Shown: piece by piece, positions 5,397-50,485 of the stretch
How positions within the stretch are numbered: position 1 is the stretch's first letter
Layout of the letters: every line of letters begins with the position of its first letter
Origin: Vitis vinifera
Lineage: Eukaryota > Streptophyta > Magnoliopsida > Vitales > Vitaceae
Direction: 5' to 3'
Assembly: GCF_030704535.1 (NCBI RefSeq)
Contig: NC_081815.1
Location: 3,544,501 to 3,608,500 of the forward strand
Length of the DNA stretch: 64,000 nucleotides
Translations under genes and position numbers: made by a program
Notes under the pieces: model-generated
Database searches by the model: none
What the model saw: the letters and a program-made list of their open reading frames with translations, nothing else
Told to the model about the DNA's origin: nothing

Positions 5397-5474
5397 GAGA
5401 CCATAGAAGAGCTAGCATGTAAATTAACATAGCTTAGCTATTGCTCTAGACCTCCACCACTCTCTCTTTGTCCT

Positions 5475-5520
5475 TGCTTCTTCTTCTTCTTCTTCTTCTT
5501 CTTCCTCCTCCTCTTCTTTT
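5475..5520 (+). repeat. CTT/CCT microsatellite in a 5' leader
   Basis: A run of about ten CTT units followed by CCT units lies just before the start codon at 5544. Pyrimidine-rich leaders are common in plants. Its length is likely to vary between cultivars. Confidence 0.85.
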
Positions 5521-5543
5521 TCTTCTCAATTCTTCTACCAAGC

Positions 5544-7746
5544 ATGTTGGTGATAGAAAAAGGCCTTTCAGCAGCCATGAATGCAAGAATGATTGGTTTT
5601 GGTAATGAGGCCATAGTTCTAGCGCATGGATTTGGAGGAGATCAGTCCCTTTGGGATAAGATCACACCCCACTTAGCTCGAAGCTACCGTGTTCTAGTCT
5701 TTGACTGGAATTTCTCGGGCGCTGTAAAGGATCCCAGCCTCTATGATTCAACAAAGTATTCTTCATATGATGCTTTCGCTGATGACTTGATCGCTCTCCT
5801 TGACGAGTTCAAACTGCTGGCGTCAGTTTTTGTCGGGCACTCTATGTCCGGTATGATTGGATGCATTGCTTCCATTAAGAGGCCTGAGCTCTTCAAGCGG
5901 CTCATATTCATTGCAGCTTCTCCCAGGTATGTAGAAAAAAAAATGGCAAATAAAAAATAAATTACTAAAAGAAAATGCCCCCAGTTTCTGTTGTTTTCTC
6001 CTTTGAATTCCTCCCTTGCTGGTTTATATATTTGGTTTTTGCAGTTGCAGATTCAAGCATATATCCATAAATTTTAGTTTCTCAAATTTCTAGATTTTTA
6101 AGAAGCTATCTTTTCTTTTTCTTTTTTCTTTTTTTTTCTTTTTTAGCATTTCTTTCTTCCCTTTTCCTCTTAGTGGGTTTTAGAAATTACAAAAAATATA
6201 GCTTTCAGGCTTCCTTTTTTCTAACTGTTCAGGAAATAGCCATGATAGCTACTTCCTGCGTGGGCTAATAAAGATTATAATTTGTGGCACAGAAGCTACA
6301 TCTGGCTTGGCTGTGCAAATAAAAGATATCAAGCATGCATGTGATTGGGTATAGTTAATGTGTCAGAAGTGTTGGATAATTTGTGGGGTTTACAGACATG
6401 TGGACAGGAGAGTTTGGGTAGGATGGTACACAGCTTTTGTCTTGTATTCTTGTGCCCATGTAGGGTGAATTTTTAATGGCCCATAACATCAAGGCTGGTG
6501 ATCAGTACTAATCAGATAAGCTCAACCCCTCCCTAGCTTTTTTAAGAAGATGCAAGGCTCGAATTGGAAACTAACTGAAAGCTGCCTGTTTGATAATGAT
6601 TTCAAAAAACTAATTTTTAAAAAAATAGCTTTTTAAATCTCTCAAAACAAAACTTTGGGAATTTGTAATATTTTCAATTTATTTTCTTTATGTTAATTTA
6701 TTTTTTAAAAATAACTTTTATTTATAATATTTATTTTTTGAACAAGTTATAAAAATACTAATATTTTTTTAGTCTTTTTTATCGATAATTTTTAAATAGA
6801 TTCTAGGATTTTCATAGGCTTTTTTTTATACCACACACATATATATATATATATATATGAAAAATCTAAGTGAAAATTATATCAAAGTACAAAGGATTGA
6901 GATTCATATATGTATGGCAAGAATGTCTTAAGTTACATGCATAGCACCACCCGATTAATGGTGTCTTTTTAATATATACCGAAGAACTATCACTCCACAT
7001 CACGATGGGTCTCTCTTTATATATCAAACTAGCTGAATACATGAAAATTTTGTATATTAGCTGTCAATTAATATCTGCTATGTCTCGCTTGTGCAAGTCT
7101 ATTCTTGGTTAGATTTTCCTAATTCAATGCGTGAAGCTGGTAGGTAAGATACAGTTTCGCACTTAAAAGCTTGACATGATCAACAACCCGTTTCGCTCGC
7201 ATTAACTATGTATAGGGATGAGACCAATAAGGTAGGGGTCATGTACAATACAAGTTCTCATGGACATTACTCTTGTTAATGTTGTATGTACGTAGGTACT
7301 TGAATGCCAACAACTATGAAGGGGGGTTTGAGAGATCAGAGATTGAGCAGATCTTCGCCAACATAGAATCCGACTTTGACAAATGGGCTTCAAACTTTGC
7401 CCCTCTCGCTGTGGATGTCAATGACCCTCTCTCAGTAGAGAAGGTAGAGAAATGTATCAGAAGAATGAGACCTGAAGTCGCTCTCCCCTTAGCCAAAACA
7501 GTGTTCTGCTGTGACCATCGTGACATTCTCGACAAGGTTACGACCCCATGCACTATAGTCCAGCCCACTAATGATATCGTCGCCCCAATCTCCGTTGCTG
7601 AGTATATGCAGAAGAAGATCAAGGGGAAAACAACAGTGGAGATCATTGACATGGACGGCCACTTTCCCCAGCTCACTGCACACCTCCAGCTCCTTAGTGT
7701 GCTAGACAGTGTCTTGGTTTTGAGCCCTGATCATCAGGAGAAGTGA
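5544..7746 (+). CDS. DLK2: DLK2-like alpha/beta hydrolase of the KAI2/D14 family
   Basis: Two coding exons, 5544-5926 and 7296-7746, joined across a GT-AG intron inside an Arg codon, encode 277 residues, the usual length for this family. It is an RsbQ-type alpha/beta hydrolase. The nucleophile is Ser100 in GHSMSG, with Asp221 (TNDIVAP) and His250 (DGHFPQL) completing the triad. The segment FDWNFSGAVKD replaces the KAI2 and D14 loop sequences and matches the DLK2 branch as I recall it (Arabidopsis At3g24420). KAI2 senses karrikin-like signals and D14 senses strigolactone; the DLK2 ligand is poorly known. The start at 5544 gives a normal family N-terminus. No signal peptide is visible, so a cytosolic or nuclear site is likely. 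The intron is AT-rich with a TA repeat. The family is sure; the DLK2 branch rests on remembered sequence. Confidence 0.9.
5927..7295 (+). other. Intron of the DLK2-like gene
   Basis: The donor is GTATGT at 5927 and the acceptor is CGTAG ending at 7295. The intron contains a TA dinucleotide run at about 6838-6858 and an AT-rich segment at about 6590-6800 that resembles a decayed MITE. No coding sequence is seen. Confidence 0.85.
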
Positions 7747-16583: not shown

Positions 16584-19500
16584 ATGCGAAGCCTAGTGGG
16601 CGCATCGCAACTCTTGAACCGATCCTCTACTCTTTTCCTCTTTCGAGGCCCTAAGTCTCATTCTCAATATCTCCATTTTGGCAAAACATCATCTTCTCTT
16701 CGAGGCTTGGCCACTATGGCTGCTGCTGCTGCTGAGGAATTTGTCAAGGGAAATGTTCATCCAAATGGCGTTGCTGTGATAACTCTTGATCGCCCCAAGG
16801 CTCTCAATGCTATGAACCTAGGTTTGGTTTTCTCATGTTTTCCTTGTTCCATCTCTTAAAGCACATCATTTGTTCGTTTTGGATTAGGATGATTGCATTT
16901 GATCGAGTGTTCGTTGCTGAAAGTTTTGGTAAATTTGTATGAATTTTATGCTTGGAAATGTTTCATTAGGAATAATTCGGGTCTGGATTTGATATTAGTA
17001 AACCTAATTGCTTCTGATTTTGGGGAGATGGTATTAAAGTGTGGTTGTAATGACCCGTTTGCAAACGATAGATGATAGACTGTAACCCTTGATTCAATTG
17101 AAGCAATAACATTTTCAGTCCCTTCGTCTGTCCTAATAACTGCATTCTTTGCTTGTGATTTTTGGAATGCTTTTTTCCTCTATTTAAGGAAAGTGATATT
17201 TCTGAAAACTCTTTGTGCATGCCTTGTAATTTTTTTCTTTTTTTGGTTTTCCTGAGAATCAAGGGCATTTATTATGGGTTTAAAAAAGGGGGGTCGTTTT
17301 TGGAAAAAGGCAGATCAGATTCCATTCCCCAAACTGTTGAAAAACAAAATTTTTGTACTTCATCTTTCTCAAGGGACCCTTCTTGAGGTTTGTGCCAAGG
17401 TTTCAGACTGAAAGGAAATAGGATCTTTGAATACCTTCTCTTAACCAGTTTCGTGGAAATTCTGTTTCTGATAATTGAACACCATTATTGGTGCATTTAA
17501 CATGCATTTCTCAATTCCAATCCTTTAAATCTTCAGACCACTCGGGAGATTGAAAAAATAACATACCTAGAGCAATAACATGATGAACCAAGAAGTCTCC
17601 AGGACCTATTGTTAAGAATACTGAATTACAATTCCCATTAACAGCTTGTTTTCGGGATAAGCAATTATGTTATGATTGTAAAGGGACAATCTTAGTATGT
17701 GAAAGTTTCATTAGATATGAAACGGCTTCCTTTGGGCATGGCCCAAAGAAAGAACATCCAGAGGAGCAATATTGTCATTTTTTTTTGTTGAGGTCTTTTT
17801 AAAGTTAAAAGTATTTTTACCAAGATCACTCAAATACATATAAAAGCTTTTATTGGGTATGAGGAAGAGCTTGTGGTTTTCAAAAAAACCCATCCAAACC
17901 ACAAAATAGTGTGTATTTGTGCTGGCAGCTGAGCTCAGGAATGGAAATCCTATTTCCAAAAATGAATCCTGGAATGGAATGATTAAGTAATCCCAGTTCC
18001 ATTTTTGGCTACTAGAATTTGAGATTTTGGTCAACTTCCATTCTCATTCTGGTGTTTGGTTATTTAAAAAAATTGCAAGAAAATTAATGCAAATTTATGA
18101 AATTATCCTTTAAATTATATTTATGAAAATTATTTATTTTTTGTAATAAATAAGGAAATAAAAATGGGTCGTCAACATTTTTTTCCCCATAAAAATTCTA
18201 TGATGGAGATGAGCAAGATATTTCAACTTTTTTTTTTTATATAGACAAGATAGTTCAACTAATTTGGAACTTTGGAAATCAAACTTTTCAAACTTGTGTT
18301 TCTCAAATAGTCATCTTATATCTAGGAATATAATACCCATTTTCTAGTTAAAATACATAAGAAATACATAATACTTGGAAATGCAGTTGGTGGAAGTGGT
18401 GTTACTTAGTTGTAAATAATAGGCTACCACTCCATTTTTCACCACCTAATCCAAGGCAGTATCCTTAGCAATCATCTCTTTTCTTACTGTCTTAATCCCA
18501 AGTGAAGCAGGCTGCATAATTTCTTACTCATGTTACCCTTCAGTTTGGTGGATAATCATGTGTTTTCTTACTGCATTGTCCATATTCTTTCTTGTCTTCC
18601 TCATCCTTGTGGCACCTTCAACTTAATAACATTGCTTCTTGTTGGGCCTTTCTTGCACATGTTCAAACCATCTTAAAAGACTTTCCAATCCTATGTTGGC
18701 GTACCTTTAATTTCTCATGGATGAATTGACTTTTAGCTTCATCACTCTCATCTGGGTCATCTTCATTTCTTCAATGTGTTGTTTCTTGATTGAATATATT
18801 CCATTCCATAAAGCTTAGTTTGCCTTTAACCATGTCAGATGTTTGGTTTCCTTTTGGCTTGGTAGGTTTTACATTGTGATGATGTTTATGTTCTTGACCA
18901 GTTGTTTTTGGAGAATTTATGTGTGGGAAAATATTGAAACCACTTGTCATGTTTCAGATGGGATGTGATATAATATGTTGTTGATATCATTGCAGAAGTA
19001 CTTTGTGTATCATTTTGTCTCTCATTATACTGACTTGTCACTGAATTATAATGTGTAGATATGGATATAAGATACAAAAAATTTCTTGATGAATGGGAAA
19101 TGGACCCAATGGTCAAATGTGTTTTGGTTGAGGGCAGCTCGTCTCGTGCCTTTTCAGCAGGTAACATGAAGAAAAATAGAACTCCTCTGTTTTCCCTGTT
19201 AAATAATGTTTTCATGTATTAAATGTACTTTTTTTGTTGTTTAGCATGAGCTTCAATTTTTTTTTTTTAAAATCTAATTTTTTAAAAAAATTTTGGGGTA
19301 ATGTTTTGTAATTCTGAGTGTTAGGTAAGATTTTGAGGGAACCATTTGTGGAAAATGCAGGAATGGATATTAAGGGGGTTGTTGCTGAAATTCAAAAGGA
19401 CAAAACTACACCTCTTGTGCAGAAGGTTTTTTTTTTTTAAATTGCACATTTTATATTCAACTGTCTGTTGGATAGATCATAGTTGACCATGGTTTCTAAT

Positions 19501-22500
19501 CAGTGTCATTTTCACTTCTATATACCCTGTGTTGTTTGTTGTTTGTATGTTTTATTGTTGTGATGGCAATCATTTTGAACCAATACAGTAGCGTAATGCT
19601 TGTCAATTGATAACCCAAGTCTTAGTTTATCTGCAGGTGGTGATGTGAAGCAGATCTCAGCCAGGAAACAACTATCATATGTGATTGAGGTCTTGTTTGT
19701 ATGCTTGTGATTATGTATCTCAGATTTTTCATCATGTAAACATTGCTGAAGAAAAGCTAATAGTATCTGAATGCTATTTAAGGTTGTTCTTTAATAATGA
19801 TGACCATGACCATGACCAATAACAGAGCTGACCTTCTTAATAATAGTCTGTGAGTCCCTGACGCCTCTAAAGGACTTCTTTCCTGTTTTGTTTGTCAGTG
19901 TTTCTTTAAAAATATTTGAATAGCTGACTTTTGGGTGGGGGAATAGTTAGGATCTCAGTGCCCCCAATTTTTGGAGAAATTTTCTGGATAAGGAGTTGGA
20001 GTTAGTGCAAGATTTTCTGCACAATTTTTTTCAAAAAAGGGATCATTCAGTGTATCGATTTAGTGCTCTTAAGGATAGGTTGCCCAGATAAGATGGTTGG
20101 AGGTTAGCAAAAGTTATGCTATGTTCTTGTTTAAATCTTCTTATAGGCTCTTTTTTGTTCAAGGGAGCAGAGTTATGCTGCTACAAAAGAGGTTTAGGAT
20201 TTATTGGCACCTTTAAAAGTGTGCCTGTTTTCTTGGGAGGTTGGTTCAGTGAATTTGCAGAACCAAATGTATCGTATAAATTGACCAAATTCTTGTGCCA
20301 TGCATGTAGCTTGTGCATCATATGGTTATCCACTTCATAGCGCATGCATTTTCCTTATTTTCTATGGATCTTGGCACTTTGATCTTGCAATCCATGTTTT
20401 TTCCAACTTATTACTAGATTGTGTGATTTGATTTTGATGCATGACTAATTTAGGGGGTGTTTATCAAGCTGAATTAAGTAATAAAAACTATACTGTTAAA
20501 AGTTGTAACCACTGAATCTGTAGTGGTGAGAAGTATATTGGTATCATTTGAAACATAAGTGCTAACTTTAATTCAACCATTTGATAAAAAAAATAAAATA
20601 AAAATTGAAGTTTGAAAATAGTTTGTTTTATAATTTTGTCATTACCCATTATTATAACAATTTTTAAATATTTACTTAGTATGTCAATAGGTACCACTTG
20701 GCACAAAAAATGTCATATGGGTTATATTCTTGAAATAGGTAGAATCGTATTAATATGATACAAAGCTTACAATTTTGTAGTTAGGCTTTAGATTTTGGAG
20801 CTAAAATTGTATCACATGGATACCTCAGAATAAGCAAAATTTCATAGTAGGATTCGTGTTGGATAGAAAATGTTATTTGAACCACTAGTTTTACTACTTT
20901 TTTTTTCATCTAATGATGTGATAATTAGTACCTGGATCTGGAAAAGTTGTTGCATTTATTTTAGAGCAATACCAATCCCATCACCTTTTACAGCCTTACC
21001 AAAGTTGCAAATGGTAATTGAAGGAAAGAAAAAGTCAGAAGAAAAAATAAGGTTTATTCTTCACCCATCATCACTTGTCACCTTGCAAAATGGTAAAAAG
21101 GTGGTAAAAGGAAGGTAAGAAGAAAGGCATTTTCATTTATTTTAATTACCTTTTTCACATCCACTTACCACCAACCATACTAACCATGGTAAAAAATGTG
21201 ATCAAGTAGTGATGCAAATAATGTTTTCCATGTTGAATTTATAATTTTAGATGATATATTAATAAAAAAAGAATGCCGTGATACATTATTGTTGTTGTTG
21301 TTGTTATGATTGTTGTTTCTTTGTTATTTTTGATATAATAGAGGAGTTTGGATAATGCAAGAGACCCAAATTTCTTCACACATATAAAGATACCGAAGTA
21401 AAAAAGTCCAATAAAATCTAGATAGAAAATCTTGTACTCTCCAACAAGCAATTAAAGTTCCTTAAGATTTTGAATGGAAGATGGCAAAGAATTGGAATGC
21501 TAATTTTCTTTAGAATCATTTTATGCAAATAAATCTGGCAAAGTATTCATTAAAACAATTCTTTCTTTGGCATGAAATTCAAATGTTATTTTGTATACTA
21601 TTCAAACTAGACAAGATCTATTTGATTTCTTTGTCAGTGAAATCAGGGACATTTTTGAAGAGTGATTATTAAATATAGTTTGGATGGTAAAAATGGAATT
21701 TAAAAGATAAAATTTATTGAACCACTTATGGTGTTTTGCTTGAAGTGTTTGGTAAGGTTCCTATAACTTTAACAGATTAAGCAGTTTTTGGGTAGATTTC
21801 AGCCATAATTGGCTACTTGTTTTTGCATCAAACAAGCTGAATAAATGGAGTCCACTTGCTTTTCCTCTTTTCAGCACTTCATAGTTTATTAAACTAACCA
21901 TAGTCAATTCCTCATTGGTTTGGGTAGCATTTTTAAATCCTGGGCAGGTTGCCATTTGTCCTGTATGTGGTGGTTCATTATATGTCTTTGTACTAGATTG
22001 TATTTATTCTGTTGCCTGAAATTGATACCTCACTCTGCCAAATTTTCTGGCAGGTATTCACAGCAGAATATTCCCTAATATGCAAAATTTCTGAGTACAA
22101 AAAACCATATATAAGCCTCATGGATGGCATTACAATGGGTTTTGGAATTGGACTGTCTGGTCATGGTCGCTACCGGATTGTCACAGAGGTATAATGGCCA
22201 TATATGGACATAAATTTGTTTTGCAACTTCAATTAGAATAATGTTCTAATTTCTGATATTTATTTGTACTAATTTGTTTCAGAGAACTCTTCTTGCCATG
22301 CCAGAAAATGGAATTGGCTTGTTTCCAGATGTTGGATTTGCTTACATAGCAGCACAGAGTCCAGGAGAAGGATCAGTTGGTATGCTTTTTGTTATTTAAG
22401 AGTTTTGATGGTTTGAGGATGGAACCTTTTATTTAGTTTCACATCAAAGTTTTTGTATCTGCTATCTATCATAGGTCCACAGGATTTTAAAGTTTCATTT

Positions 22501-25500
22501 TAAACTTAATTGTCAATAGTCACAGGGTCTAAAACCCATTATAATTGAAGTGCTTGAAAGAAGACAGAACTTGAAATGGGTCTTCTTCACATTATTCTTA
22601 GGCCATTAGCTTATTCAACTGATATAAAACTGATTTTTGAAATCCATTTGATGTGGGTTATAGACTCATTTTCAGCAGACCTTCTGTCTGCTTCTGTGAT
22701 GTAAGTAGGCTAAACATAGTTACTAGAACTTTCAGATAGATTTCCTTTTTGGAATAGCGTACACCTATTTTCATTTTTATCCAACTTTGCATAGAGGCGT
22801 CTGTATTTTTTGGAATGATTTTTCATCCTTTGTACTTATTTTTTCAATGTAATGAAATGGTTGCTTCTAATAAAAACAATCCATAGTTATCGGAACAAGT
22901 AAAAAGGCATAAAGCAAAAGTGGTGGGTGGGAAGAGAAAAGGGACAAAAATGTTAGAGAAATGTACAAGAAAAAATTATGAAGGCCTCTCAATAAAAGTA
23001 TATGAAGTATTTGACATGTAACATATATTAGGATGCATCAAATCCAAAAAAGAAAAAAGTTTATAAATACAAGTGATAACTTTACTTTTGGGTGTACATG
23101 CTTTAAATTATCATTGATTCACCACCAATTGTTGCAATGTTTAGTTAACAAATACTAACAATGACCATCAATTCTCATAAAATACATGTAGCTTCTAATG
23201 ATCTTGAAAGTGCTATTTTGAATTTTTTTTTTTTTTTGATAAGTAAAGCAAATTGTATTAAAACAGAGGCGAGAAGCTACAAAGCATACAGGGGGTATAC
23301 AAAGCAACTAGCACCTCTCAAAGCAAAAAGAAGACCAACAAAGCCTCACCACCCCTTAATTGGACGCTAACCATTCCAAGAACCGTATAAGGGATAGACG
23401 CTCCTCTCCAATATACAATCTAGCCTAGCTCCATAAATTACAAACAAAAGAATTCTTAAGCTTCTGAATATCTAACACTCCTCCCCTAAAAGTTAGTCTA
23501 TTTCTCTCCTTCCAAACCGTCCAAAAAATAAACAATGGTATGGACTTCCATATCTTTTTCCTTTTCTTTCCCACAAAAGGGCCCCTCCAGCTAGTTAAGA
23601 CCTCCTTTACAGTTTCTGGAAAGACCCACTGCACACCTGATAACCCAAGGACAATATTCCACAGAACTCTGACCACTATATAGTGAATAAGTATATGATT
23701 TACAGTTTCTTCTTCACACCCACACAGAAAGCAACAATTAGGAAGCTGTCATCCTCTTTTCTGAAGCCTATCAAGAGTGAGCACCCTCCCTCACGTAGCC
23801 TCCCAAGCAAAGAATGCAACCTTGGTTGAAACTAAATCCACCCAAATACATCTTGACAGAAAAACAATATCATTGGGATTGGCCAACAAGCTGTACGCTT
23901 CTTTGACCCTAAACTTTCCGTTTTTTCCTCCCTTCCAACAAAATGAATCTTCCTCCATAGAGGGCTTGTAGCCCCTCAGAGCATAGAGCAATTCCCCTAT
24001 CATATCCAACTCCCAATCATTAAAATCCCTCAGAAATCTTAGATTCCAACCCCCTGACCGAAATTCTGATCCCACATCTCCTCCACCGTAGCATTCCTAT
24101 GGGAAGCCATAGCAAAAAGACGAGGGAAATTTTGGGACAACGCTATACCAGTACACCAAACATCAGTCCAAAAACTGATTTTGCTTCCCTTCCAAGCTAT
24201 GAACACCATGTTATCCCAACACCAATTAGTTTCCTTCAAAATTTCCTTCCGCACCCCTACTCCGAACGCCCCATAAGCCCTCTTTGCTCTCTAACCATGA
24301 CCTTCTTGCCTGTATTTCGCCGTTATCACTTGTTTCCAAATATTATCTTTATCACAAGCAAACCTCCAGATCCATTTACCAAGCAAAGCTTTGTTCAAGA
24401 GCACTAGCTTCCTTAAGCCTATCCTTCCCTTGTTCTTGTCCACACAAATCACCTCCCATTTAATTAGATGAGCTTTCCTTTCCACGTTTCCCCCTCCCCA
24501 AAGGAAGTCTCTTTGTACTTTTTCTAATCTTCTAGCAACTATCTTAGGCATCCGGAATAGAGACATATGATAGATTGGCATGCTAGCCAAGGTGCTCTTT
24601 ATGAGAGTGATTCTCCCACCTTTGGAGATATATTGCCGTTTCCGCCGTGCTAGTCTCCTCCTCATTTTCTCTTCCACCCCATCCCACACAGAAAGTGCTA
24701 TTTTGAAATATTAGAGTTACCATTTCAATTTTTTTAAGCACAAGTGGTTCAAAGAACTTTTGAGTTCCAATGGTAATCCTAAGAATCGAAGAATCAAGCA
24801 TGAATAGTTTACTCTGATGTGTGCTGCCACAAAAGTCTGGAAAACATATCAATACTGCCATTCTCTAAGGGCTAAGAACAATCTTTTATTTCTAGTTAAA
24901 GAGGTTTGGGGATCAGGTGCCTCTCTCAAAACTCGTTTTTTGATTAGGAAGCGGTGTGGGGGAAGATATTAACTGTAGATACGTTGATGAAGAGGGGATG
25001 CCCCTTGGTTAATAGATGGTTTCTTTGTAAAAATAGTGAAGAGTCAGCTGATCATATTTTGATTCATTGTAATTGAAAATGTGAATCTCAATAATGAACT
25101 ACACCTAGAGGGGGGTGAATAGGTGTTGTAGAACAATTTAAAAAATCCTTCCAACAAAGATTACCTAACCTTAGACTATCTTAATGTCAAGAATTTTTTC
25201 TTCTAATAACTTTTCAACAAAGCAAAACATCCACAAGCAATAATGTATGCATCAACACTCTCCCAACAATTTATAAATGCAAAACACATGCAAATACTTC
25301 AACACTCCTCAAAAATAAATCAAAACATAGAGTGAGAGAAAGAGACAATGAACACCGGATTTTTAATGTGGAAAACCTCCGAAAAGATCAAAAACCACGG
25401 GCCTATCACCGATTGAAAACTCCACTATGAAGAATAAAAAAACTGAGTACAAAGTTTTACCTAGTTCAAGCCAACCAATCCTTCCCGGAATACTTGACTA

Positions 25501-28500
25501 GTACCTTCATTTTCAGCTTCTCCTTTTGGAGCACACTTGGAGTCCGCACCAAGCTCAATCTTGGCCTCTTCTTGAATCCACACAAGAAGAAAATGGGTTT
25601 TTGCACAACCCAAATAGAATGAGAGATTTAGATGTGAATGAAGGAATGAATCAACCCATTTATTGCTCAAGAAAATCCATTGAAAACTAGTTTTGAAAAC
25701 ATTAAGAGAAGTGGATTTTCTTTGCAATCAAAAACCCCAACTTAGGAAAGCAAAAATGAGAAATGAAGAACACTTGGAGTGTGGCTACTCTCCCCACATT
25801 TTCTGCAGTCTCTCTATTTAGAAAATGAGAAAAGATTTGTTTTTAAAGTGTAAAAAGAAACCCTTAATCTAATGGCTGAGATTTGATCAAAAAAACATTA
25901 GTTGGATAAATCCACCCCTACACTTGGATCGATCCAGAAACAGAGGAATGAAAGCCTTGCACCAAAAACCATTTTTCCCAACTTTCTAACACATTTAAAA
26001 ATTAAAAACCGAGTTGATTCACACCCAATCACTCCACACTCGACTACATACCTCGGCCTCTTAGTAAAGTCTTAGTCTTCAAGTCAAGTAGTCCGAATAG
26101 GAATAGGAAAGCCGAGTTAGGGGACACTTAGGAATTTTGTCCGGAATTGCCAACCTAGCTAAACACTCACAGTAATAAGACAAGACAACTTTGGTTAGTG
26201 TTGTTAACGACTTTTGATTTGGTATGGGTGTTCCTAGCTTCAGTGAGAAATCTTCTCCTATAATGGAAATTCAGGGACTCTAGAGAAGAAGAAGAAGAGA
26301 GCAGTTTGGCGGCTAGCTCCGATTTGTTTATTTTGGTGTATTTGGGGAGAGTGCAACTGAAGGATCTTCGAATATGAAGAACTGTTGGACCAAAGGCTGA
26401 GTGGTCCAAACAGTTGCTGAATGTGGAAATCCCCTCTCATCTGAATTTTCTGGAGACTCTATATTGTGGCTACCCTTGCTTTTTTCTAGGTTTTTGTCTT
26501 TATTTTCTGGTGCTTGGGTTGGTTTTTTTTGTGTGTACTGCTTGTTACATTGAGTATGCCCCCTTTTTTTGGCGCTTCTTAATACAAGCTTTTGTCTATC
26601 CAAAAAAAATTTGCCTTTCCAGGTGACCTGTTGGGTTTTCACGGTAGCAGCTCCTCTAGGTAATAGTAATACTAAGGATCAAAAAATGAAATATGAATAG
26701 TTGCTCTAAGGTGTGCTACCAGAAAAGTCTGGGACATATATTGGAACCTGCTTTCCAAGTGAGTGACCTGTTGGGTGTTAGTAGCAGCTCCTCTAGGCTT
26801 CACCTTAAAATATTGTCTCTACATGTGTGATCGAAGAAACTTAAAACCAAATCACATGATCATTGTACAATTTTTTTTAAAACCTGGAACCTTCCACAAA
26901 CCCTTCCCATCCCTTGACCACTTGAGTCAGGCCTCAAGGGCTTGCATGATCATTATACAATATCAACACCAATGCACATACGAGTTCCAGATCTACCAAC
27001 TTGAAACTTGCTGCACTTAGACCAAAACCTTTGCCGGCTACATCAATAAAGGAACTTGAGGAACAGCAATATTGGAACTAGAATTAAGTTGCTTAAATGA
27101 AGGTAATAGCATAAAAAAATTAAGTTATCAAAGTCCTGACTAAAATTCACTTTTGAATGATGGGGGCCATGGCATGGAAAGTAAAAGTTGGTTGATTTGT
27201 TGAAAGATTTTTTTGCTATGTTGAAAGTTTACAAGATCTAGGTCCTTGCCTTGATCCTCCGGGAGAGGGTCTTTAGATGAAATGTCACCAAATGCGACTA
27301 ACTGGGGCAATGGCATGTCAAGTAAAAGTTGGTTGACTTGTTGAAAGATTGTTTAGCTATGTTGAAAGTTTACAAGATCTAGCTCCTTGTCTTATTCTTC
27401 TAGGTAATGGTGAAACAGGAGTTTTTGTTTTTTCCCATCTTCTACATCGGCATAGGGAATAATTTATCCTTCCTAGGCATATTGTTTATCCATCTTTTTG
27501 TAGCTGTTAAACCTAGCTTTGTTATAAAATAGTCGATACCATGGTCTTCTGTGTTTATTTCATGCTTTAACTAATTCAAGTTTTTTCAGGTGCTTATCTT
27601 GGAATGACTGGAAAAAGGATTTCTACATCAGCAGATGCACTATATGTAGGTCTTGGAACACACTATGTGCCATCTGGGAACTTGAGTTCACTGAAAGAGG
27701 CCCTTCTGACAACCAGCTTGTATGCCTCAAACAATCTTTCTATGCATGACAACAACTATTTTTGCCCTGCTGAAACTGCATTACGCATGACCATATGCTT
27801 TCACTTACATACATGATTTACAAAAATTGCCTTGTGAACCATTATTTATGAATAGGAGTTTTCCCCTTTATTGACATCATTCTATGAATCTATCAATCTA
27901 GCTTGATAAAATGATGGAACATTCATGTCACTCACTGATGTAGGTTAGGTTTTTTAATTGCTTGATGTCTTTTCATTGTAAATTTACAATTTTTACAACC
28001 AATGTATGAAACTGAGGCGTTCAGTTTCTGTTATTCATATACCATCTAGTCTGGGATGTATTCTCCATTCATGTATCTGTTTATCATATATCCACTTTCT
28101 CACTAGAAAATCATTATCGATTGTCCATACAGTTCAGAGGATCCACATCAGGACATCAGAGAGCTGTTGGTGAAATACAGCCATGACCCTGAGTCTGAGG
28201 CCCAGTTAAAGTTGCTTTTGCCTCAGATTGTTTCAACCTTCAGTGCAGATAAGTCAGTTAATGAGATTATAGAAGAGCTGAAAAAGCATCAGCTTAGCAC
28301 TGATGCTATAGGTAAGCTACTTTACACCATTCTTTTTATGGTAGATCAGCTCGGTGCCTTGGACATCTTCTCCTACTCAATCTAGTAATGTTGGCATCTA
28401 GTTCTTGCTTCAGCTCATTTCATCCATCATTTTGATTGCCATTGTTTCCATGAACAGTGTCAGAGTGGGCTAAGGAAGCCCTTTTAGGTCTTGGAAAGGG

Positions 28501-29595
28501 GGCTCCTTTTTCTCTTTGTTTAACACAAAAGCATTTCTCCAGAGTTGCTTTGGCACGTGGAAAAAATGACAGTGATTTGTGCAGTGTGAGTTGCTTTTTC
28601 CTGCTTTTTTTTTTTTATAAAGAAAAGAAAACTTATTTTGCTAATTCCCAAAAGGCCACAAATTTTAAGAAGTAACGGGTATTTTCCTGCAATTGGCTGT
28701 ATCCAGTTAAGCGGCGTGATGAAAACTGAATATCGCATTGCTTTGAGGTCTTCTCTTCGGAATGATTTTGCTGAAGGGGTCCGGGCAGTCTTAGTGGACA
28801 AGGATCAGGTTTGTCTCATTATAGTAGGAAGCCATTTATATGTTAGAAGCATATGAACTGGTGAAATTCTGAAATTCTGTTTGATGCTGCATGCTTATCA
28901 AGTGCATGTTACCTTGTGGGTAATTTTTTACAACACTATATTACCCTATGTATACCATCATGGTCCCAATAGCTTCCTTAATTTTTTTACACTTAAATAG
29001 AATATTAGCTGCTTCAGTTTCTTCGGAATGATTTACTTAAATTCCCATCTGCATTCCTCATCTTAGTAACAGTGGTGAAAAGGCATCTTACTAGACTGCC
29101 ATCTCGCCTAGTTTCCTCTGCAGATGCCTCCATTTTGTTGCAGTTCATTACTAAGCTAAACTCCTATACAAGTGAATATTAGCCCTTGAGAGGGTTTAAA
29201 TTGGATGGAAAGTGGAGTTTGAACAGCCATCATGTTCCTTCTCATTACATGCTTGAACCAGAGATCCTTCTGAGGATGATATCACCTTGTATCTTTCTGA
29301 GTGTGATCCATCAACCCATATGACCACTTCAAATTCATGAGACCATCACTCTAGCCTATTGTTGAGATTTCTTGTAATGTGAACTGAGCTGAGTATTGTA
29401 GTGTGAGTGTTTGATTTTCCTTTTTACTTGCATTGAACTCGCTGTATCTGAATAAAATATTTTAATGCATTTTCCATCTTCATGCCTCTGCAGAAGCCAA
29501 AGTGGAACCCCTCAAGCTTGGAGGAAGTGGATCTAAATGAAGTGGAAGCTGTCTTTGAACCATTAAGCCAGGGAACGGAGGAATTGAGAGTTTGA
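16584..29595 (+). CDS. Mitochondrial 3-hydroxyisobutyryl-CoA hydrolase-like protein (mS47 type), with alternative exon 3
   Basis: Exons: 16584-16821, 19059-19160, 3a 19361-19425 or 3b 19637-19689, 22054-22188, 22283-22379, 27590-27719, 28133-28311, 28458-28585, 28707-28808 and 29494-29595. With 3a the protein has 425 residues, with 3b 421; both keep frame. It is a crotonase-fold protein of the HIBCH family, which removes CoA from 3-hydroxyisobutyryl-CoA in valine breakdown. The closest plant type as I recall (At4g31810) is also a mitoribosome small-subunit protein, mS47. Residues 1-55 are rich in Arg, Ser and Leu like a mitochondrial presequence, so I chose 16584; an in-frame ATG exists at 16464. 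Conserved [15 protein letters not shown] (exon 4) and [13 protein letters not shown] (exon 5) include the Glu and Asp used by HIBCH. Exon 2 ends AFSAG where the family usually has AFCAG. Introns 1 and 5 carry transposons. Confidence 0.92.
18440..18820 (-). mobile_element. Decayed LINE reverse-transcriptase tail in intron 1
   Basis: Read on the minus strand, the stretch around 18640-18700 gives [11 protein letters not shown], close to the LRWFGHVQRRP motif near the end of many plant LINE polyproteins. Weaker matches lie on either side and stop codons interrupt the frame. Ends and target duplication were not found. Confidence 0.5.
19361..19425 (+). other. Alternative exon 3a (GMDIKGVV version)
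   Basis: A 65-nt exon between ATGCAG and a weak donor, GTTTTT. With the last base of exon 2 it encodes [12 protein letters not shown] followed by [10 protein letters not shown] and ends in phase 0, ready for exon 4 (VFTAEYS). It puts Met-Asp in place of the Gly-Asp usual in the oxyanion-hole segment of the hydrolase family. This version matches the mS47-like plant sequences that I recall. Confidence 0.85.
19637..19689 (+). other. Alternative exon 3b (GGDVKQIS version)
   Basis: A 53-nt exon between CTGCAG and a weak donor, GTCTTG. It encodes [18 protein letters not shown], has the same entry and exit phases as exon 3a, and lies 211 bases after it. It restores the canonical GGDV of HIBCH and CHY1 enzymes. 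Using both exons adds 118 nt and breaks the frame, so the two must be mutually exclusive for a full protein. Confidence 0.85.
23223..24690 (-). mobile_element. 5'-truncated LINE with a 17-bp target duplication
   Basis: The 17-bp GAAAGTGCTATTTTGAA occurs at 23206-23222 and 24691-24707, bracketing the insert. The poly-T run just inside the left end is the poly-A tail of a minus-strand element. Minus-strand frames encode the C-terminal part of the reverse transcriptase (about 24689-24291: [31 protein letters not shown]) and the zinc-binding domain with a tail (24075-23425: [30 protein letters not shown]). Stops and frameshifts make it inactive. The start is cut within the reverse transcriptase, as usual for LINE insertions. 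Confidence 0.92.
24885..26609 (+). mobile_element. Second LINE 3' fragment, split by a solo LTR
   Basis: The plus strand at about 24895-25073 encodes a zinc-binding reverse-transcriptase domain ([31 protein letters not shown]). The continuation resumes after the inserted LTR at 26172 ([10 protein letters not shown], then [16 protein letters not shown] near 26310), followed by untranslated sequence and a short poly-A stretch at about 26601-26609. Several stops are present. Related 90-bp segments lie on both sides (about 24768-24860 and 26665-26755), so the site may carry an older duplication. I did not find the target duplication. Confidence 0.75.
25074..26171 (+). mobile_element. 1.1-kb solo LTR inside the LINE
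   Basis: TGAAAATGTGA...ACTCACA with TG...CA ends, flanked by the 5-bp duplication GTAAT (25069-25073 and 26172-26176). Removing the insert and one duplication joins the LINE frame from HILIHC-N to KTRQLW, which supports these borders. It contains the CTACACCTAGAGGGGGGTGA motif that I associate with dispersed plant retroelements. The family is not identified. Confidence 0.8.
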
Positions 29596-29680: not shown

Positions 29681-30315
29681 CTAATTTGACAAAGGGCATG
29701 CTCCATTACGTTGTGGTGCTACATCAAATTTCTTTTGGTCTTTTCTCAAAGGTGGCGGATAACTTTGTTAAAATAAAAGGAAAAACATCAGCTAATTTGG
29801 CAGAAAGTCGAGGGTTACAACATATTCATTTCTATTTTCTGTCAATCCTTTTTCTCCATTTTTTTCAGTACTTTTGGACTTGACTAAGTTTCTTAGAACA
29901 TTTTATTCAATTTTTATTCAGTATAACATGGTAGGAGTTTTTGGATTGTGCCCGAATATCTTGATTTTGTAGTTATCCACTCTTATGTATGCTGCACTAA
30001 TCCGTCCTTTGCTAAAGGGCATGGGAGCACTCAACCCAACCATTAGTAGGTAGCATTAGATTAAAGAAAAATGCTTAATTCTAAATTGTTGCCAGGCTCA
30101 TCACTAAGGTTGAATGCGTAACCAGGATCTCACCACTGAATCCAACCACCATTGGCAGTTCTATATCTTTGGCTTTCAGTCGACAAACCAACTTGTATCA
30201 AAAAAACATACTATTATTGCAAATGGGATGCTGTTTGGTCATAAATTCAATGATAAAAAGGACTACATACAGCATCAGTGTGGCTTAAAAAGAAACAGCA
30301 AGGAAAATGTGCATA

Positions 30316-33300
30316 TTACGAGCAATCTCCGCTCCTCAAGCTCTGAAGTAGCTCCAAGTATCCTAAACTATCAGGGCCAATATACCTGCAAATATGAGAG
30401 AAGTAAATAATTGGAATAAGCAAACTGTTGGAACATTTTTTTCTTACGTCTGCTAAAAAACTGGATCAAAATAACTCATTTTGCTTTACCATGGACACAA
30501 CTTCCAATATCTTCAGTATGTTTAGCAACCAGCTAGTACCGAAGATGATATGTGATGACCCATTCTTTTCCATGTAAATATTGTCAGCTCTAGGCTAGAA
30601 CACTAGGTTGTCATCTTATTGGGACTTTTTTTAGCTTCATTTATTATAAATTCCAATTCTTTCTTTTATTCTAAATTGTCTAAATGGTTTCTTAGTAAGT
30701 TTTAGTTTGAAATTGTTTTGAAGAATAGCAAAATGTTTGATGTTTTTAGAGGATTTTCTTTTTTTTTTTAAGCTTCAAGGAAAAGTAGTACGTTTTTACT
30801 CGCTCTAAACATGAATTTGGTAATGGGTAACTTTCCTATTACAAGATGTTTGTTTGAGTCATTCCCATTTTGACTCTCCATGCTTGAAATGTAAAATGAC
30901 CATTATGCCTATAGAGTGGGTCCTAGGGCGTGCCATGATATATGCCAAATAATAATTGTTTCCATTCATTCACACAAAAGCAGGAGAACAACAAGAGAAG
31001 GAATAGAGAAAAAGCTATACCCATGGCGAAACAGGAAATCAATGATGACAAGAGAACAATTTGACTTGAAAAAGTGTGTCCTCCGTACGACATCTGCAAC
31101 CTGTGACACAGGGATCAATCTGAAGCTCTCCACTTCTCCATCTGTTACATGTTTAAGAAGCCATTAAGGGGGATGGATTGAATCCAAAGAAAAATATTGC
31201 AGTTAATAACTTCCAAATGAAATGGAAAGTTGGAAACAAAGCAAATGCTCCAAGACTGAGTTGCAATTTTACAATTTCTAAAGTGGAGAAGAATGAGGTT
31301 GTGATGACAATTGATGAAAACTGAGCATCAATATGTTTACCTTGGTTCTTAGGAATGAAATCGTCAGGGAGTTTTAAATCATAACAAAATAAAACATCTC
31401 GCTTGTATCTATACCCATCAATGTCACCATATGAGACAGCACCAACTGGTACAGCTCTGTGAGTCAAGCATGTTCCGTCAATATTATAAATTGTAAATGA
31501 AGAAGAAAATAAGAGAGGCAGAGAAGTCGGAATGAAAAAATCTAATGCAAATCAAGGATATATATTTGACAAACCAAATTTCAACTTCCTAGCCTCTATG
31601 AGCCATATGATGAATATGGAAAAAGGAAAAGAAAATGCTTAAAATTGTTCGACCAAGTACTTTTAAGCACTGTCTTTCTTTCTGTTGCTTTTTTTTTTTT
31701 CTCTTTTAACAAAGCCAGTTGGACAAGTCATAGTTCAATGGCAAAGGAAAACCTACTCTTTAGACATGGATCTGGGGATTCCTGCTTCCTCTTCACATTC
31801 CTTCATAACATTCTCCATACAGGCTATCCCATGAGGCTGCAATTTTGATCAACAAAGTAAGAGATACAGAACTGCCTCAGAAAAAAAAGGGCAAATGCTC
31901 TTATTGTACATGAAATTGAAATTTTGTTGATTGCACAGCCAACTAATTTTATATAACCAACTTCTGATAGCCTGCATAATGGAAAAACAAAGGTCCAGCC
32001 AGAAAATGGGCAGCCCTACAATGCCCACTTGGAATTTTGTTGTCTTTCCCCTTTAGTTATATACTTAAGATATAAATGTGAAACTGACATCTAAATAATG
32101 CTTTGAGCAGCACGATATAACAAACAGATGAACATGTTAATTGCATATTTTATGGAATATTTTTCATTCAATGGATCCTAAAACCTTTACAAGAATGGAA
32201 AAACCTTATTTCTCCCCATGAATGGTATGGATCATAAAACTCTCTGATTCATTATTATGTATAAAAGCAGACAAACATGATTTCTTGCTTGATCCATGCA
32301 AGGGATTTAAGTCATGACCTTTGAGATGCCATTAGGCTATGACCTTTATCAGAAGGAATGTGACACAATGGGACATAGAAAGCCCTTTTATGAGGCCACA
32401 ATGCATTAAATTACTTATGAGAGCACATAGAACTGGGTAATGCTTGGTAAGCAAGAAGAAGAACTGTCAATATATGCAAAGGTAAAAGGCTGTTATATAC
32501 CAGTCCTCCAGAAACTAGATGATCAAGCATTCCTGGATAAGTGGTCTTCACTTGACTTCTCTTGCCTATCCACAAGTATTTCTGCCCGTTTCTTTCTGTG
32601 TAGCCATTCATTTGAATTCCATAAGCCTATTCTTCAAAAAGCATTTAAAGGTGAAAACATAAGATGGATGGTACAATAATCAGCATATAAACATAAAATA
32701 CCTTGGATTCATTTGTCAGACAGCCTTTGATACAAGAAAAATGCATATCTTGCCATATGTGAAGATTGAATGTTTTTCAGCCTTTTATTAGATGTAACAA
32801 GGTGATGAGAATTACATGGAAGAAGACATACAATCCACAATTAACACATGTAGAAATAATCAAAGAGGAGATGCACAACCTTTCACCTCTATGGTATACA
32901 ATCAAAATTTGCACCATCTTTTATTAGCAAAAACATGTGGATTTACCCTTGGCCTTTGGATGAAGGACTCACTATACACTATTTCCAAAATGGTGTAAGT
33001 AAAAAATTTAAGTGAGACCATGACAAGATGATATTTCTACAAGACAGACAGTTCTCCAACTTGTAAGCCACACAGAATATGGCACTAACATGGTCTAAGC
33101 TCAGAAAATTTTCTGCAATGCATAGTACCATATTATAAAATAATATGCTTGATGAATAGCTCATCTATAGTTTCCTTATGCACAACTAGCCAACACCACT
33201 TTTATAGGCTTTGTTCAACAGATTGAGAAATATAAGTAATATGAAAAATGAAAAAACAGAAAAATGCTTCCGTGCAACAGATTGATTAAGGAACATGCAT

Positions 33301-35362
33301 CACAATTATAATTTCAGTGGTTTAAGAGTTAAGAAAAAATTTCTTTATGCACTACTAGCCAAAACCACTTTCTTAGGTTGGTGATGTCCAAACAAATCAC
33401 TGAATTAAGCCATGGTCCATGATGATTTTGGAACTCAAAGACAATACCACTAGAGCATAGAGGAAAAAGAACATCTCAGGTCTCAACTCCATATTTTCAT
33501 ACTCTATTTCATTGTTCTTATTTTTTATTTTAACACTAATAATCAACCCATCAAAATCAGAGCAATGTGAAACTTATTACACTAACCAAGATGAATTTCA
33601 CTATTTAGTGTCTTGATATTTCCAATGCCCAACATCACAAACTGGTAATGAATGCTTAAATTATCTCATTTTAGTTTGTGTTTCCAAAAGGGGGAGCAGT
33701 TTCAATACAATATACAAAGGCATGACCAACCTTTATCCCAAAATAAGGAGCGGCTGCACGTTCCAGCAAGAAAAACACCGGTGCCCCAAAGAGTGATGCA
33801 ACAGGATATAGCTGAAGAAAACCAATGTCAATAATAATTCACCAATGAAACAAAAAACGAAGTCCAAAAAAAGAAAGAAAAAAGGAAAAATTGAGCTCCA
33901 AAAAGTTTCAACAATATAATAAACAGATCCAAACTAAGCAAACCAAAGCATTTGATAACACAAATCCACACACTGAAGGAAAGATGAGAATCAATAAATC
34001 ATTTTAGTGATCTGAAGTAGTACCTCCTTCCGTATACCTGGAATCAGTTCTTCCCCTAAGCATTTAACTACATCTCCAACTGCTCTAGTCCTTTCATTGG
34101 GTGTCCTCAGTACAGGGTGTAGCATTATATGGGAGTTATCTTGGGTGAAAATAAACACATTAGAAAATCTCTTTAAGTGATCATCGAAAAAGCTGCACAA
34201 AGTCAAAATGCATTCATTAATACAAACATACTGTTCAAGTTTTTCTAGATCTAAATTCAACAACAATAAATAAAGAGGCCCATTATCGAGTGCAGGTCAC
34301 TTTTTGTGAATTTAGGAGTGGTTCAACAACTGGTAATAGACCTAAATTCAGCAATTTTTCAATAAAGTGGTTGTGCAAAATGTCAAGCTGCAGTTGCTCA
34401 CTTCACTTGACAGTCCAAAAGTTACCAATGCACCTAGTAATGGCTGCTCTTTCAGCTGTACAAATTGTGTCCGAACTTAAACTACAAGTTATCAATCAAG
34501 TCATTAACTCATTAAGTATTACATAATTAAGATAATTGATGATGATATTACCCTTTATGAATATAGCCAACAGTTTGGTCCTCAATGACAAATGGAAGGA
34601 AGTCCGATTGTTTTTCCTGCACGAAATTTCAATCAACAACTACTGATTTGGTATGGCTAATGAGAAAATGTAGGGAAAACAAAAGTAAGTTATGACATCT
34701 CCCAATTTTCATCACAACCAAAAACCTCCACTCAATTGATTCCGATACAACTCGAATGCTATTCATACAAGTAATTTCACTTAAGAACTAGCGACTTAGA
34801 TTCTCTAGTAACCATTTCAATTAAGAATTACAGGTTTAGATGCTCTGTTTGGTCACATAGAAAACGAAGAGAAAATAAATTAAATTTTGAAATCTCGGGA
34901 TTTTGATCATTTATCCAAAAACCTCCCCCTAATTGATTCTAACACAGATTTAATGCTTCTCCCATTCTGCTCAGAGACCATGACAAATTAAAACAAAAGT
35001 TCAAACTTTAATTTTCTTTTCCTTGCTTTTCTCGGCAACCAAACATGTGTTGCATACATACATAGAGAGACAGAAAGAGAGTGTGTGAGAGATACTAAGC
35101 CGCGATTGCAGACTCTGATCTTCTCAAAGAAGCCTTGAAGGTCGGACGAGTGTCGCGAAGAATCCTGGGAGTCGGAGATTCGAACGACGTCGTCCCAAGT
35201 GAAACAAGTGGCGGAGACGGAAGGAGAGCTAACCCTAATTGGAGTGGAAGCCAAAGTGCGTGATGAAAGGGTGAGTCTAGTTGGAAGAAGAGGAGAGGAG
35301 AGAGAAGCAATGGAGCTTCGGACAGAGTGGCAGAGACGCAGATGATGGTGATTGCAAGCCAT
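30316..35362 (-). CDS. NUDT20/24-type Nudix hydrolase, copy A
   Basis: Nine exons in transcript order: 35362-35096, 34616-34552, 34192-34024, 33811-33731, 32626-32501, 31836-31757, 31456-31341, 31141-31021 and 30385-30316. Total 1095 nt, 364 residues plus stop, open throughout. The N-terminal 55 or so residues are rich in Ser, Leu and Arg like a plastid transit peptide. Then comes the Tnr3-type leader domain (TWDDVVRIS, FVIEDQTVGYIH, GEELIPGIRKE). The Nudix domain (GKRS near residue 215, GGLPHGIACMENVMKECEEEAGIP at about 234-258) has a slightly degenerate box with Lys for the usual Arg. The ending is YLELLQSLRSGDCS. Plant and yeast relatives are reported to hydrolyse damaged thiamin diphosphates such as oxothiamin diphosphate. 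It is convergent with the hydrolase-like gene. A GACGTC-centred palindrome lies upstream. Confidence 0.93.
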
Positions 35363-35442
35363 GGAGCGTCGAGGGAGAGAGTGCGGGAATGGGAGACTCC
35401 TTTTGGGCCTTTGGCTGTTATACGGTTATCCATGCCCTTCAA

Positions 35443-35454
35443 AACGACGTCGTT
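35443..35454. promoter_or_regulatory. Perfect palindrome AACGACGTCGTT upstream of Nudix copy A
   Basis: A 12-bp perfect palindrome with a GACGTC core, a C-box-type bZIP site, about 80 bases upstream of the start codon at 35362. The same 12 bases are kept upstream of copy B at 50380-50391, although nearby sequence has changed. It may lie in the promoter or the 5' leader. Confidence 0.5.
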
Positions 35455-37439
35455 GGAGCTCTTGCATTCTCCGAGGTGACTTGTGTCAGCCATGCACCTG
35501 CCTAATAGGCCATGTGCCCGCTTCGCAAAATTAGGTCTTCAACTTTTACACGAGAGGACTCGAGCGTCGAGACAACTCCTTTTAGAAAGCATTAAAAAAA
35601 AAAAAAGGCGATTAAAAGGATGAAATCAATCGACTTATGGAATACTAACCTTCACCTTTTTTCAATCTAAAAATTATCTATAAAAATACTCTCCTTTTTT
35701 TCTTATTAAAATAATAATTTTTAAAAACATACACATAAATAATAAAAAAATATTAAAGATATTTATATCAAAAATTAGAAATTCAAAAATAGGAAAAATT
35801 AATTTTACAAATTTAAAATTTTTTTCATCTCTTTTAATCAACTAGTAACTGCAAATGTGCCAAAGCACATAAGAGAATATAAAAAAAGTTCAACAAAAAA
35901 ATTAGTATGTGAATTTATTTTTTTAAAACTTATATAAAATCAAGTAAATATTCAAAATCAAATAATTGAATTAAACATGAAACCAAATTAAAAAAATAAT
36001 TAGGATTAAATACAAATAAGATTACATTTTTGGGCACCAAATTTTATGATAATAAAATTATTTTTTAACTAATGTTCTTATATTATAAAAATAAATATCC
36101 TTGGTCATAAACATTTACCAATTTAAATTTAAACATATTATTTATTTCTTTTACACTAAATTTATAAAAAAAATTTGTGTTAATTATTTTACATATGTTC
36201 AAATTTTTTTTTTGCCTTTTATATAAGACTTTTTTTTAATAAAAATAAGAACAAAAATGAATTAATTTGAGCAAGAAATTTGAGGATTAAAAAAATTTAA
36301 AAAAAAATCTCAAATCGATGGCATTGTCAGACCAAACCCATTGGAAGAGTTGAAGTGAAAATTTTGAAAAGAATAGAAAATGACAAAAGAAGAAAAAGCT
36401 TTTGAAACTTTAAAGAGAATAAAATTTATAATGGATGAGAAATTTGAAAAGTTTTTAAACTTTTAATAATAAATTTTTATAACATTAATTATATTAATTA
36501 TGTGGTTTTAAAGAGAATGAATTAAGACATTTTTGGAATGAAAAAATTGAAGAGTAATTAAAAAATTAATGATTGATTTTCATAACTTTCTTTTCAAAAA
36601 ATAAAAAATAAAATATTTATATTAAATTTAAAAATTCTTATGGAAAAATTATTGACTATATATTATGTTGTTCAAAATTATTTTAAAAATATATTTTTTT
36701 AATTCATTTTTAAAAACCATTATATATTTTATAAAACTTATTATTATTTTTTGTTTCTAAGATAGAAAATAGAATCCAAATTAAATTAAATAATTCCATA
36801 TCAAAGAAAAATATATAATATATCAAATTATTCAATCAACCGAAAAAAATATAAAGGAATAATAAGTTTTGTTCTAAAAAAATTTCTAAATCAAAATAAT
36901 TAAAATTTTAATTAAAATTTTTTTATCATTTTGGTACATTTTATATCAAAATCTTAATATTTTTAATATAATGTTGTAATTTCCTTAATAAAATTTAAAT
37001 TTGTTTAAATAAATAATGTAAATGAGTGATGAAACTTTTTATTCAGTAATTATCTATAATATAGTAAGTGTTATTATTAATTCACTATTATTTTATTAAA
37101 TATAAAAGTTTAAAATATTTAAATATCTCAAAATGAATGAAAATCACTATTTATAGTTATAAAAAGTAAACAGTTTGATGTAATTAATTTTTAAAAAAAA
37201 ATAATTTATTTCATTGAAGAAATGAAAGATAGGTTAGGATAATAAGAAAATATTAATAATAAATATAAGTATTAAATACATTTTATTTGTTTTCTCAAAA
37301 CACATTCAAATACGATTTAACATACTTTGAATTTGTTATTAAGAAAAAAAAAATACCTAATTTGTAGAAGAGTTTTAAACAAATCCTAATTGTTCTTCAT
37401 GTCAATTCTAAATCCGAAATCGAAAAAACACTTTGCGGT

Positions 37440-42556: not shown

Positions 42557-44137
42557 CTTCCGTAATCATCGTTTGGAATCAATTTTATCATGGAAAGGAT
42601 TAGAGAGGTTAGACCATACGAGGATTTTGGTCGTTTGAAGCAAAATAGAGGGAATTTATACTCTGCTCTTTATTCCACCATATCTGGAAACATTAAGCAA
42701 TGAATCTCAATCTCTGAAGATCATCACCATCGTCGCTTTATAACAGTCGGTCTCGCATAGAATTCTCACGCTCCCGCGCGGTTTTTGCCACCGTCACCGT
42801 GCAATCAGTGGCGTTCATGCCGGATTTTCTGCCAGAAAATGTCATGCACGTCAGAAGCCGCGCCTCCCGTGCTCCAAACAGTCACCGCCACTACATCATA
42901 TCCGGAGCTTATAGTACGTATCTTGATGGCCCTGTTTGGTTGCCGAGAAAACGGAGGAAAAGGGTTGGAAATGAAGTTTTGTGTTTTGATTTTTCGGATG
43001 TTTGGTTCCCTGGAAAATGGAACACTCGACGTGAGTCTGTCAAGGTGTTGTGCGACACTCAGTTGAGCTGTTTCTTTCGTTATTGGGAACTGAACAAACG
43101 AGAATGGTGTGATGTGAATTTTGTTTCCGTCACTCTTTTCTTTTTCCGATTCTCAGCAAGCAAACAGAAACAAGTTGTACCTTTTTCGGAGGGACCGACG
43201 AAAGGAAACGGAAAAGAAGTTCACTTTCTTAAGAAACTAAAAACCTCATCTCACTAAAATGATTGTATAAGACTTAATTCAGTTGATTATTCTTTTTATC
43301 TCCTTAGGAAACAAACAATTGAAAATACGCGGTTTGATCTTTTCCATTTATTTTCTTCTATGTTCCTTCCATTTCTTCTGCTTGTTTGGAATGCGTTAAT
43401 TCTTCTGCTTGAGTTTTATTTGTATTGAAATTGATTGAAATAGGACAAAAATGCTGATTTATCAATGAAGATTGAAGAAGGGTTCGGACCCAATGGATTG
43501 GGTATTCTGACAACAGCTCATGTAAGAATGTTTTACTAGTGATTCTTTGTGTTAATTCTCTCTCTTTTAGTATTTGATTTTCATAAAATCAGCAGGGTTT
43601 CGTGCCTTGATTTTGTTCACGGGCTAATTACTAGGTTATCATTATGGTTGATGTTCAAATGTTTTATAGTTGATCCTTTTGTCACATTCACTATGTTGAA
43701 ACTGAAAACATTCAATATGTCATATATACCTAGTTTGCTGGTAGTATGGAAAATTTTCACTCTTTATCCTCTAGTTATGAAATCTGTTCGTTGATCCCCT
43801 TAATTTTCACTGCTCTCAGTTCTCACTTATTCTTACTTTCAAATTGATATTATGCTATCCATTGATCCATCATCCCTGGTTAAGAACCATTCCACGACAT
43901 TTAATTGCTTATATTTATTTATTTATTTTCCCTTTGGTAGTACTTTTGAAAACTACAACCGTCATTTCTTTGCATCTGTTCTTCTTAAAGTCCTACCTAT
44001 GCAACATTTTAGGAGATCTTCAGAATAATGTGCTTCTTCTAGCTTGAGATATTGCAGATATGACACAAATGTAGTGTTAAATAGGTTCTTCTGAAGTTCC
44101 ACTTGTCTTGTCTTATGATAAATATGAAAGGAGAAAA
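42557..44137 (+). pseudogene. Truncated, frameshifted copy of the 2OG/Fe(II) oxygenase-like gene
   Basis: This matches 59998-62170 of the gene at the right edge. Exon 1 (ATG at 42700, donor at 42914) has TGA as the sixth codon (42715-42717), where the right copy has TTA, and an extra base near 42768. Exon 2 is kept at 43444-43521 with a Gly-rich core (EEGFGPNGLGIL) and His for Asp at its last codon. Exons 3 and 4 are missing: sequence corresponding to about 61226-61838 is absent, joined near 43805. Homology stops at about 44137, so exon 5 onwards is absent. It is a dead 5' fragment unless an internal ATG is used. Confidence 0.85.
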
Positions 44138-45091: not shown

Positions 45092-45131
45092 TTGAGAAAA
45101 TGCGACAAGGAAAATGTGTCATATTACGAGT

Positions 45132-50307: not shown

Positions 50308-50379
50308 GGAGCGTCGAGGGAGAGAGTGCGGGAATGGGAGACTCCTTTGGACTGTTATACATTTATGGACGCCCTTCGC

Positions 50380-50391
50380 AACGACGTCGTT
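50380..50391. promoter_or_regulatory. Perfect palindrome AACGACGTCGTT upstream of Nudix copy B
   Basis: Identical to the 12-bp palindrome upstream of copy A and again about 80 bases before the start codon (50307). The 20 bases to its left differ between the copies by substitutions and a deletion, so the palindrome is among the better kept parts of this short region. Confidence 0.5.
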
Positions 50392-50485
50392 GGAGTTTCC
50401 TTCATTCTCCGGAGTGACTTGTGTAAGCCATGCACCTGCCTAATAGGCCACGTGCCCCTTCGCAAAATTTGATCTTCAACTTTTA

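Follow-up and report, generated by a model that had tools for sequence, protein, structure and literature searches.

Predicted mutually exclusive exons in a HIBCH-like gene of Vitis vinifera match a splicing event already published for other plants

A 64,000-nucleotide (nt) stretch of Vitis vinifera DNA (the window; RefSeq assembly GCF_030704535.1, contig NC_081815.1, positions 3,544,501 to 3,608,500 of the forward strand) carries on its + strand a gene that runs from an ATG at 16584 to the end of a stop codon at 29595 and has ten coding exons in either of two forms, depending on which of two short alternative exons, 3a or 3b, is used (Table 1). Judging by exon lengths, exon order, and the difference in protein length, the gene is probably (at a rough probability of 0.9) the orthologue of the plant enoyl-coenzyme A (CoA) hydratase/isomerase (HIBCH-like) gene for which mutually exclusive exons were described by Wang et al. 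(2008; PMC2277414). The event has been in print since 2008, and the agreement in these three features makes the window a further instance of it.

In the available portions of PMC2277414, to which all statements citing it here are limited, Exon3 (65 nt) and Exon4 (53 nt) of the Medicago gene AC145449_47 are mutually exclusive and give isoforms of 418 and 414 residues, the same four-residue difference as between the 425- and 421-residue proteins predicted with 3a and 3b, respectively. None of the isoforms represented by expressed sequence tags (ESTs) contained both exons, and the same pattern was reported in the closest homologues from Lotus, Arabidopsis (At3g24360), and rice (LOC_Os06g39344), while At4g13360 keeps the 65-nt exon only with no trace of the 53-nt exon. 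The initial annotation of the window had proposed that a HIBCH-like gene carries a mutually exclusive exon pair, and this proposal is supported by the ESTs of these other plants (PMC2277414). Among other sources available in part, PMC7397149 concerns At5g65940, the words enoyl, hydrolase, and hydratase are absent from the accessible text of PMC2646279 on grapevine transcripts, and the accessible text of PMC2674458 gave no useful lead.

Either exon by itself kept the reading frame open. AG and GT were present at all four borders of 3a and 3b, and both exons completed the same split Gly codon and exited in phase 0, encoding with the shared Gly a segment of 22 residues starting GMD (3a) or of 18 residues starting GGD (3b). 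Splicing in both exons shifted the frame and led to a stop directly after '...VQKVVM', and skipping both shifted it to a stop after '...IFPNMQNF'. The exon coordinates, lengths, and 211-base spacing given in the initial annotation were exact on recheck, and its shared split codon, phase 0 exit, protein lengths, and frame shift with both or neither exon were all reproduced, early stops arising in both cases.

The exon pair also stood out from chance candidates. These were defined as AG...GT segments of 29-119 nt that preserve the phase and lie wholly within 19230-21990, of which 309 were found and 98 stayed open. Each open candidate was joined to exons 2 and 4 and evaluated against a profile built from the corresponding region in 80 bacterial relatives (the top 80 among 590 confirmed stretches, to which all counts out of 80 refer). 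Exon 3a ranked first (87.3 bits) and 3b second (86.3 bits) among the 98, followed at 74.9 bits by the best candidate overlapping neither, with a mean of 66.3 bits and a standard deviation of 5.7 for the whole set, much of this score coming from the constitutive sequence that the profile covers on both sides and that gives every candidate a high base. A second in-frame donor (GTATGC) was noted nine bases past 3b (19690-19698) that would add three residues, and the resulting 62-nt form scored 85.6 bits with the same profile compared to 86.3 for 3b.

Genome searches at E<=0.001 placed all nine matches of a 345-residue isoform-3a query and both matches of a 67-residue isoform-3b query inside the window, and the single genome match of exon 3a DNA was also there. 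A second gene of this kind was not found in the genome with these isoform queries at this threshold, and more distant ECH_2 genes were present elsewhere, with 46 matching stretches in all. This bears on the possibility that just one of the two exons is in use in this plant and that the other is a still-open relic, a loss of the type reported for At4g13360 (PMC2277414) and one that the poor splice sites of both exons by simple scores would fit. Such a loss is very unlikely here, since both exons are still open, phase-correct, and family-like, and no second copy was found to take over one isoform whereas Arabidopsis has two genes.

Two observations weigh against the orthologue reading, for which the match was made on exon lengths, order, and residue difference: one Medicago EST skips both exons, so that exclusion is not absolute (PMC2277414), and the intron/exon duplex energies of 11 pairs in the window all fell within shuffles by a crude test. 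Other results concern mS47, a protein of the mitoribosome: exon 4 alone was 42.5 percent identical to mS47, isoform 3a scored above 3b on the plant mS47 chain 6xyw_BE (164.0 vs 158.3 bits) and on 9evs_f (166.2 vs 160.6 bits), and a tree left a common clade of the window protein with plant mS47 possible (approximately unbiased test, p 0.323; p 0.165 for placement with human HIBCH, neither placement being settled). This tree had 25 rows: the window protein, trimmed of residues 1-44 and of those encoded by exon 3b, four stretches from the PDB, and a subset of 20 from among the 80 relatives.

Together with the common fold family of mS47 and HIBCH and the alignment of the window protein with 6xyw_BE (5e-47), these mS47 results speak for the idea of the initial annotation that the exon choice decides between an enzyme and a mitoribosomal mS47-type protein. 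The idea is nevertheless extremely improbable and was rejected on motif and gene identity. Plant mS47 is At4g31810 according to the accessible part of PMC6953067, and 6xyw_BE was recognized as the product of this gene by an AT4G31810 peptide printed in the available text of PMC4986872 and found within the chain. Exon 3a had been described as resembling mS47-like relatives, a likeness that did not hold: both 6xyw_BE and 9evs_f carry SGADV, not GMDIK, where exon 3a gives AGMDI, and on contig C4 an individual mS47-like exon shows SGGDV. Isoform 3b, rather than 3a, scored higher on 6yw5_88 (166.1 vs 161.2 bits), 5mrc_88 (136.2 vs 130.3 bits), and 8d8l_8 (135.9 vs 130.0 bits), mS47 chains presumably of fungal origin. 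None of the 39 matches of an mS47 query in the genome (E<=0.001) lay on the contig of the window (C11), the match with the lowest E-value being on contig C19 (72 percent) and the most nearly identical one on contig C4 (87 percent), and the window protein was 41 percent identical to human HIBCH compared to 32 percent for plant mS47.

Many short mS47-like matches were observed on contigs C4, C15 (near 16212122), C2, and C13, several with internal stops that may mark introns or broken copies. AT3G60510 and AT4G31810 are listed as Clp protease in the available part of PMC4986872, at odds with the hydrolase-family and mS47 naming.

Both isoforms of the window gene exceeded the curated cut-offs of the family profiles. 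Pfam ECH_2 (PF16113) scored 356.2 (3a) and 354.0 (3b) bits against a cut-off of 27.2, and NCBIfam NF004127 (3-hydroxyisobutyryl-CoA hydrolase) scored 319.0 and 319.2 bits against a cut-off of 274, with 3b also slightly above 3a on human HIBCH (207.8 vs 204.6 bits). E184 and D192 (isoform 3b numbering), which we take to be the active-site Glu and Asp, lie in constitutive exon 5 and were identical in 80/80 relatives. The start of exon 3a or 3b presumably supplies the first oxyanion-hole residue and MGFG in exon 4 the second oxyanion segment. At the first position GGD was found in 79/80 relatives and GAD in the remaining one, which bears out the earlier statement that 3b reads GGDV as in catalytic relatives, and the GMD of 3a, and hence its Met (Met115 of isoform 3a), in 0/80. 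At the second, both isoforms have Phe161 (isoform 3b numbering) where the relatives have Gly (77/80) or Ser (3/80). The Gly of the family motif MGGG is therefore missing from both isoforms, and only family-level (ECH_2) membership is claimed instead of 3-hydroxyisobutyryl-CoA hydrolase identity. Between the Asp of the first motif and the next conserved Glu-Tyr, 62/80 relatives have 22-23 residues (19-28 across all 80), isoform 3b has 20, and isoform 3a has 24. Exon 3b thus has the typical residue but a segment on the short side, and 3a a segment of normal length but an atypical residue; judged from these sequences, neither isoform is simply 'the enzyme'.

One pre-mRNA would accordingly give two CoA-hydrolase-fold proteins differing only in the segment at the first oxyanion position, and the swap may retune acyl-CoA binding or substrate range without moving the protein to the ribosome. 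More tentatively, the splicing switch could be older than the monocot-dicot split, with the change from Gly to Met and of the acyl-binding segment turning one mitochondrial-type enzyme into two that act on different acyl-CoA substrates or reactions and are chosen by tissue or metabolic state. Several metabolites were altered in a knock-out of At3g24360, oxylipins being up to 11 times higher, so that the gene matters for metabolism as far as the accessible text of PMC6314165 goes; the searches made of open-access papers yielded no assay of the separate isoforms. Alternatively, the exon choice could mainly be a transcript-level switch, mis-included or skipped forms being passed on to decay and the two proteins being equivalent, a view that concerns function only, is compatible with the published event, and overlaps with the orthologue reading. 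The early stops of the both-exon and no-exon forms and the presence of the both-skipped form among Medicago ESTs (PMC2277414) would fit it, but it is unlikely given that two full-length isoforms from dicots and rice (PMC2277414) suggest that the peptides matter and that 3a departs from the Gly of 79/80 relatives.

The splice sites give limited insight into how the choice may be made. The donors of 3a and 3b matched CAG|GTAAGT at 5/9 and 4/9 positions with U1 duplexes of -4.1 and -4.2 kcal/mol, and had been put forward as weak sites marking a regulated choice. This is not distinctive, as the donors of constitutive exons 5 (-4.2 kcal/mol) and 6 (-0.5 kcal/mol) score no better, and weak sites are thus no proof of regulation. 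On visual inspection none of the ten donors looked like a U12-type site. The 3a acceptor had 7/17 pyrimidines, the lowest of ten acceptors, and the 3a donor runs directly into 12 T (19427-19438), another 12-T run lying in the preceding intron (19257-19268); the window as a whole has 11 T runs at least 12 long. Recognition of 3a could be helped by TIA-1/UBP1/RBP45-like proteins that bind U-rich RNA. Competing RNA structures that enforce the choice were considered and rejected, as the duplex energies did not go beyond shuffles, the lowest being that of intron 2 paired with the 401 nt immediately following 3b (z -1.6, 3/60 shuffles as low). The 211-nt intron between the exons is long enough to splice, which makes simple steric exclusion unlikely. 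The most likely picture would be that two sub-optimal exons compete and thereby exclude each other, frame-shifted both-exon and no-exon transcripts presumably being removed by nonsense-mediated decay. A recent tandem exon duplication was also rejected, since the likeness of the 3a and 3b DNA was within shuffles (96/500 as high). The peptides have G-x-D-[IV]-K in common, and only 16/2000 shuffles reached their score, so any duplication would be old.

Table 1. Predicted exons of the HIBCH-like gene and the intron between its alternative exons (window coordinates).
Feature	Position	Strand	Remarks
Exon 1 (coding part)	16584..16821	+	Start codon and presumed mitochondrial leader; gene model
Exon 2	19059..19160	+	Last base is first base of split Gly codon
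Exon 3a, 65 nt	19361..19425	+	Encodes 22 residues with shared G; one genome match
Intron between alternative exons, 211 nt	19426..19636	+	Opens GTTTTTTTTTTTT
Exon 3b, 53 nt	19637..19689	+	Encodes 18 residues with shared G; one genome match
Exon 4	22054..22188	+	Phase 0 start; contains MGFG
Exon 5	22283..22379	+	Contains invariant Glu and Asp (E184, D192, isoform 3b numbering)
Exon 6	27590..27719	+	Gene model
Exon 7	28133..28311	+	Gene model
Exon 8	28458..28585	+	Gene model
Exon 9	28707..28808	+	Gene model
Exon 10 (coding part, including stop codon)	29494..29595	+	Gene model

Within intron 5, reverse-strand reading frames at 23425-24710 have what we take to be the look of the end of a non-long terminal repeat (non-LTR) retrotransposon. 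Elsewhere in the window, alpha/beta-hydrolase-like reading frames were observed at 5433-7746, presumably resembling the D14/KAI2 type. Two direct copies of ~5.2 kb (30299-35548 and 45106-50485) begin 15 kb from each other, have ~93 percent identity, carry similar reverse-strand reading frames, and are probably a recent local duplication. A second direct repeat (42695-44137 and 60091-62170) has copies ~17 kb apart that are 91 and 94 percent identical in two pieces. Along the window, copies of one repeat take turns with copies of the other, as would be expected if a single larger segment had undergone doubling.

To our knowledge, active-site exon swaps of this kind are rare in plants. The gene is a clean plant case in which mutually exclusive exons replace part of the active site, with reports from both dicots and rice (PMC2277414). 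Among known systems, HIBCH (PDB 3bpt) was the top PDB match for both isoforms and shares the fold family, the invariant Glu and Asp, and 41 percent identity with the window protein; in contrast to HIBCH, window isoform 3a has Met in place of the oxyanion Gly, and both isoforms have MGFG where 77/80 of the bacterial relatives have Gly in third position. Plant mS47 (At4g31810; 6xyw_BE) is a distant relative in the same fold family (32 percent identity) that carries SGADV and MGCG compared to AGMDI (3a) and MGFG in the window. At4g13360 is a close homologue that retains the 65-nt exon, whereas the window gene has both exons. The closest system is the event of Wang et al. (2008; PMC2277414), which shares with the window the 65-nt-then-53-nt order, the mutual exclusion, the four-residue difference, and the domain, and differs in that it was claimed from ESTs of other species whereas the window is known from DNA alone.

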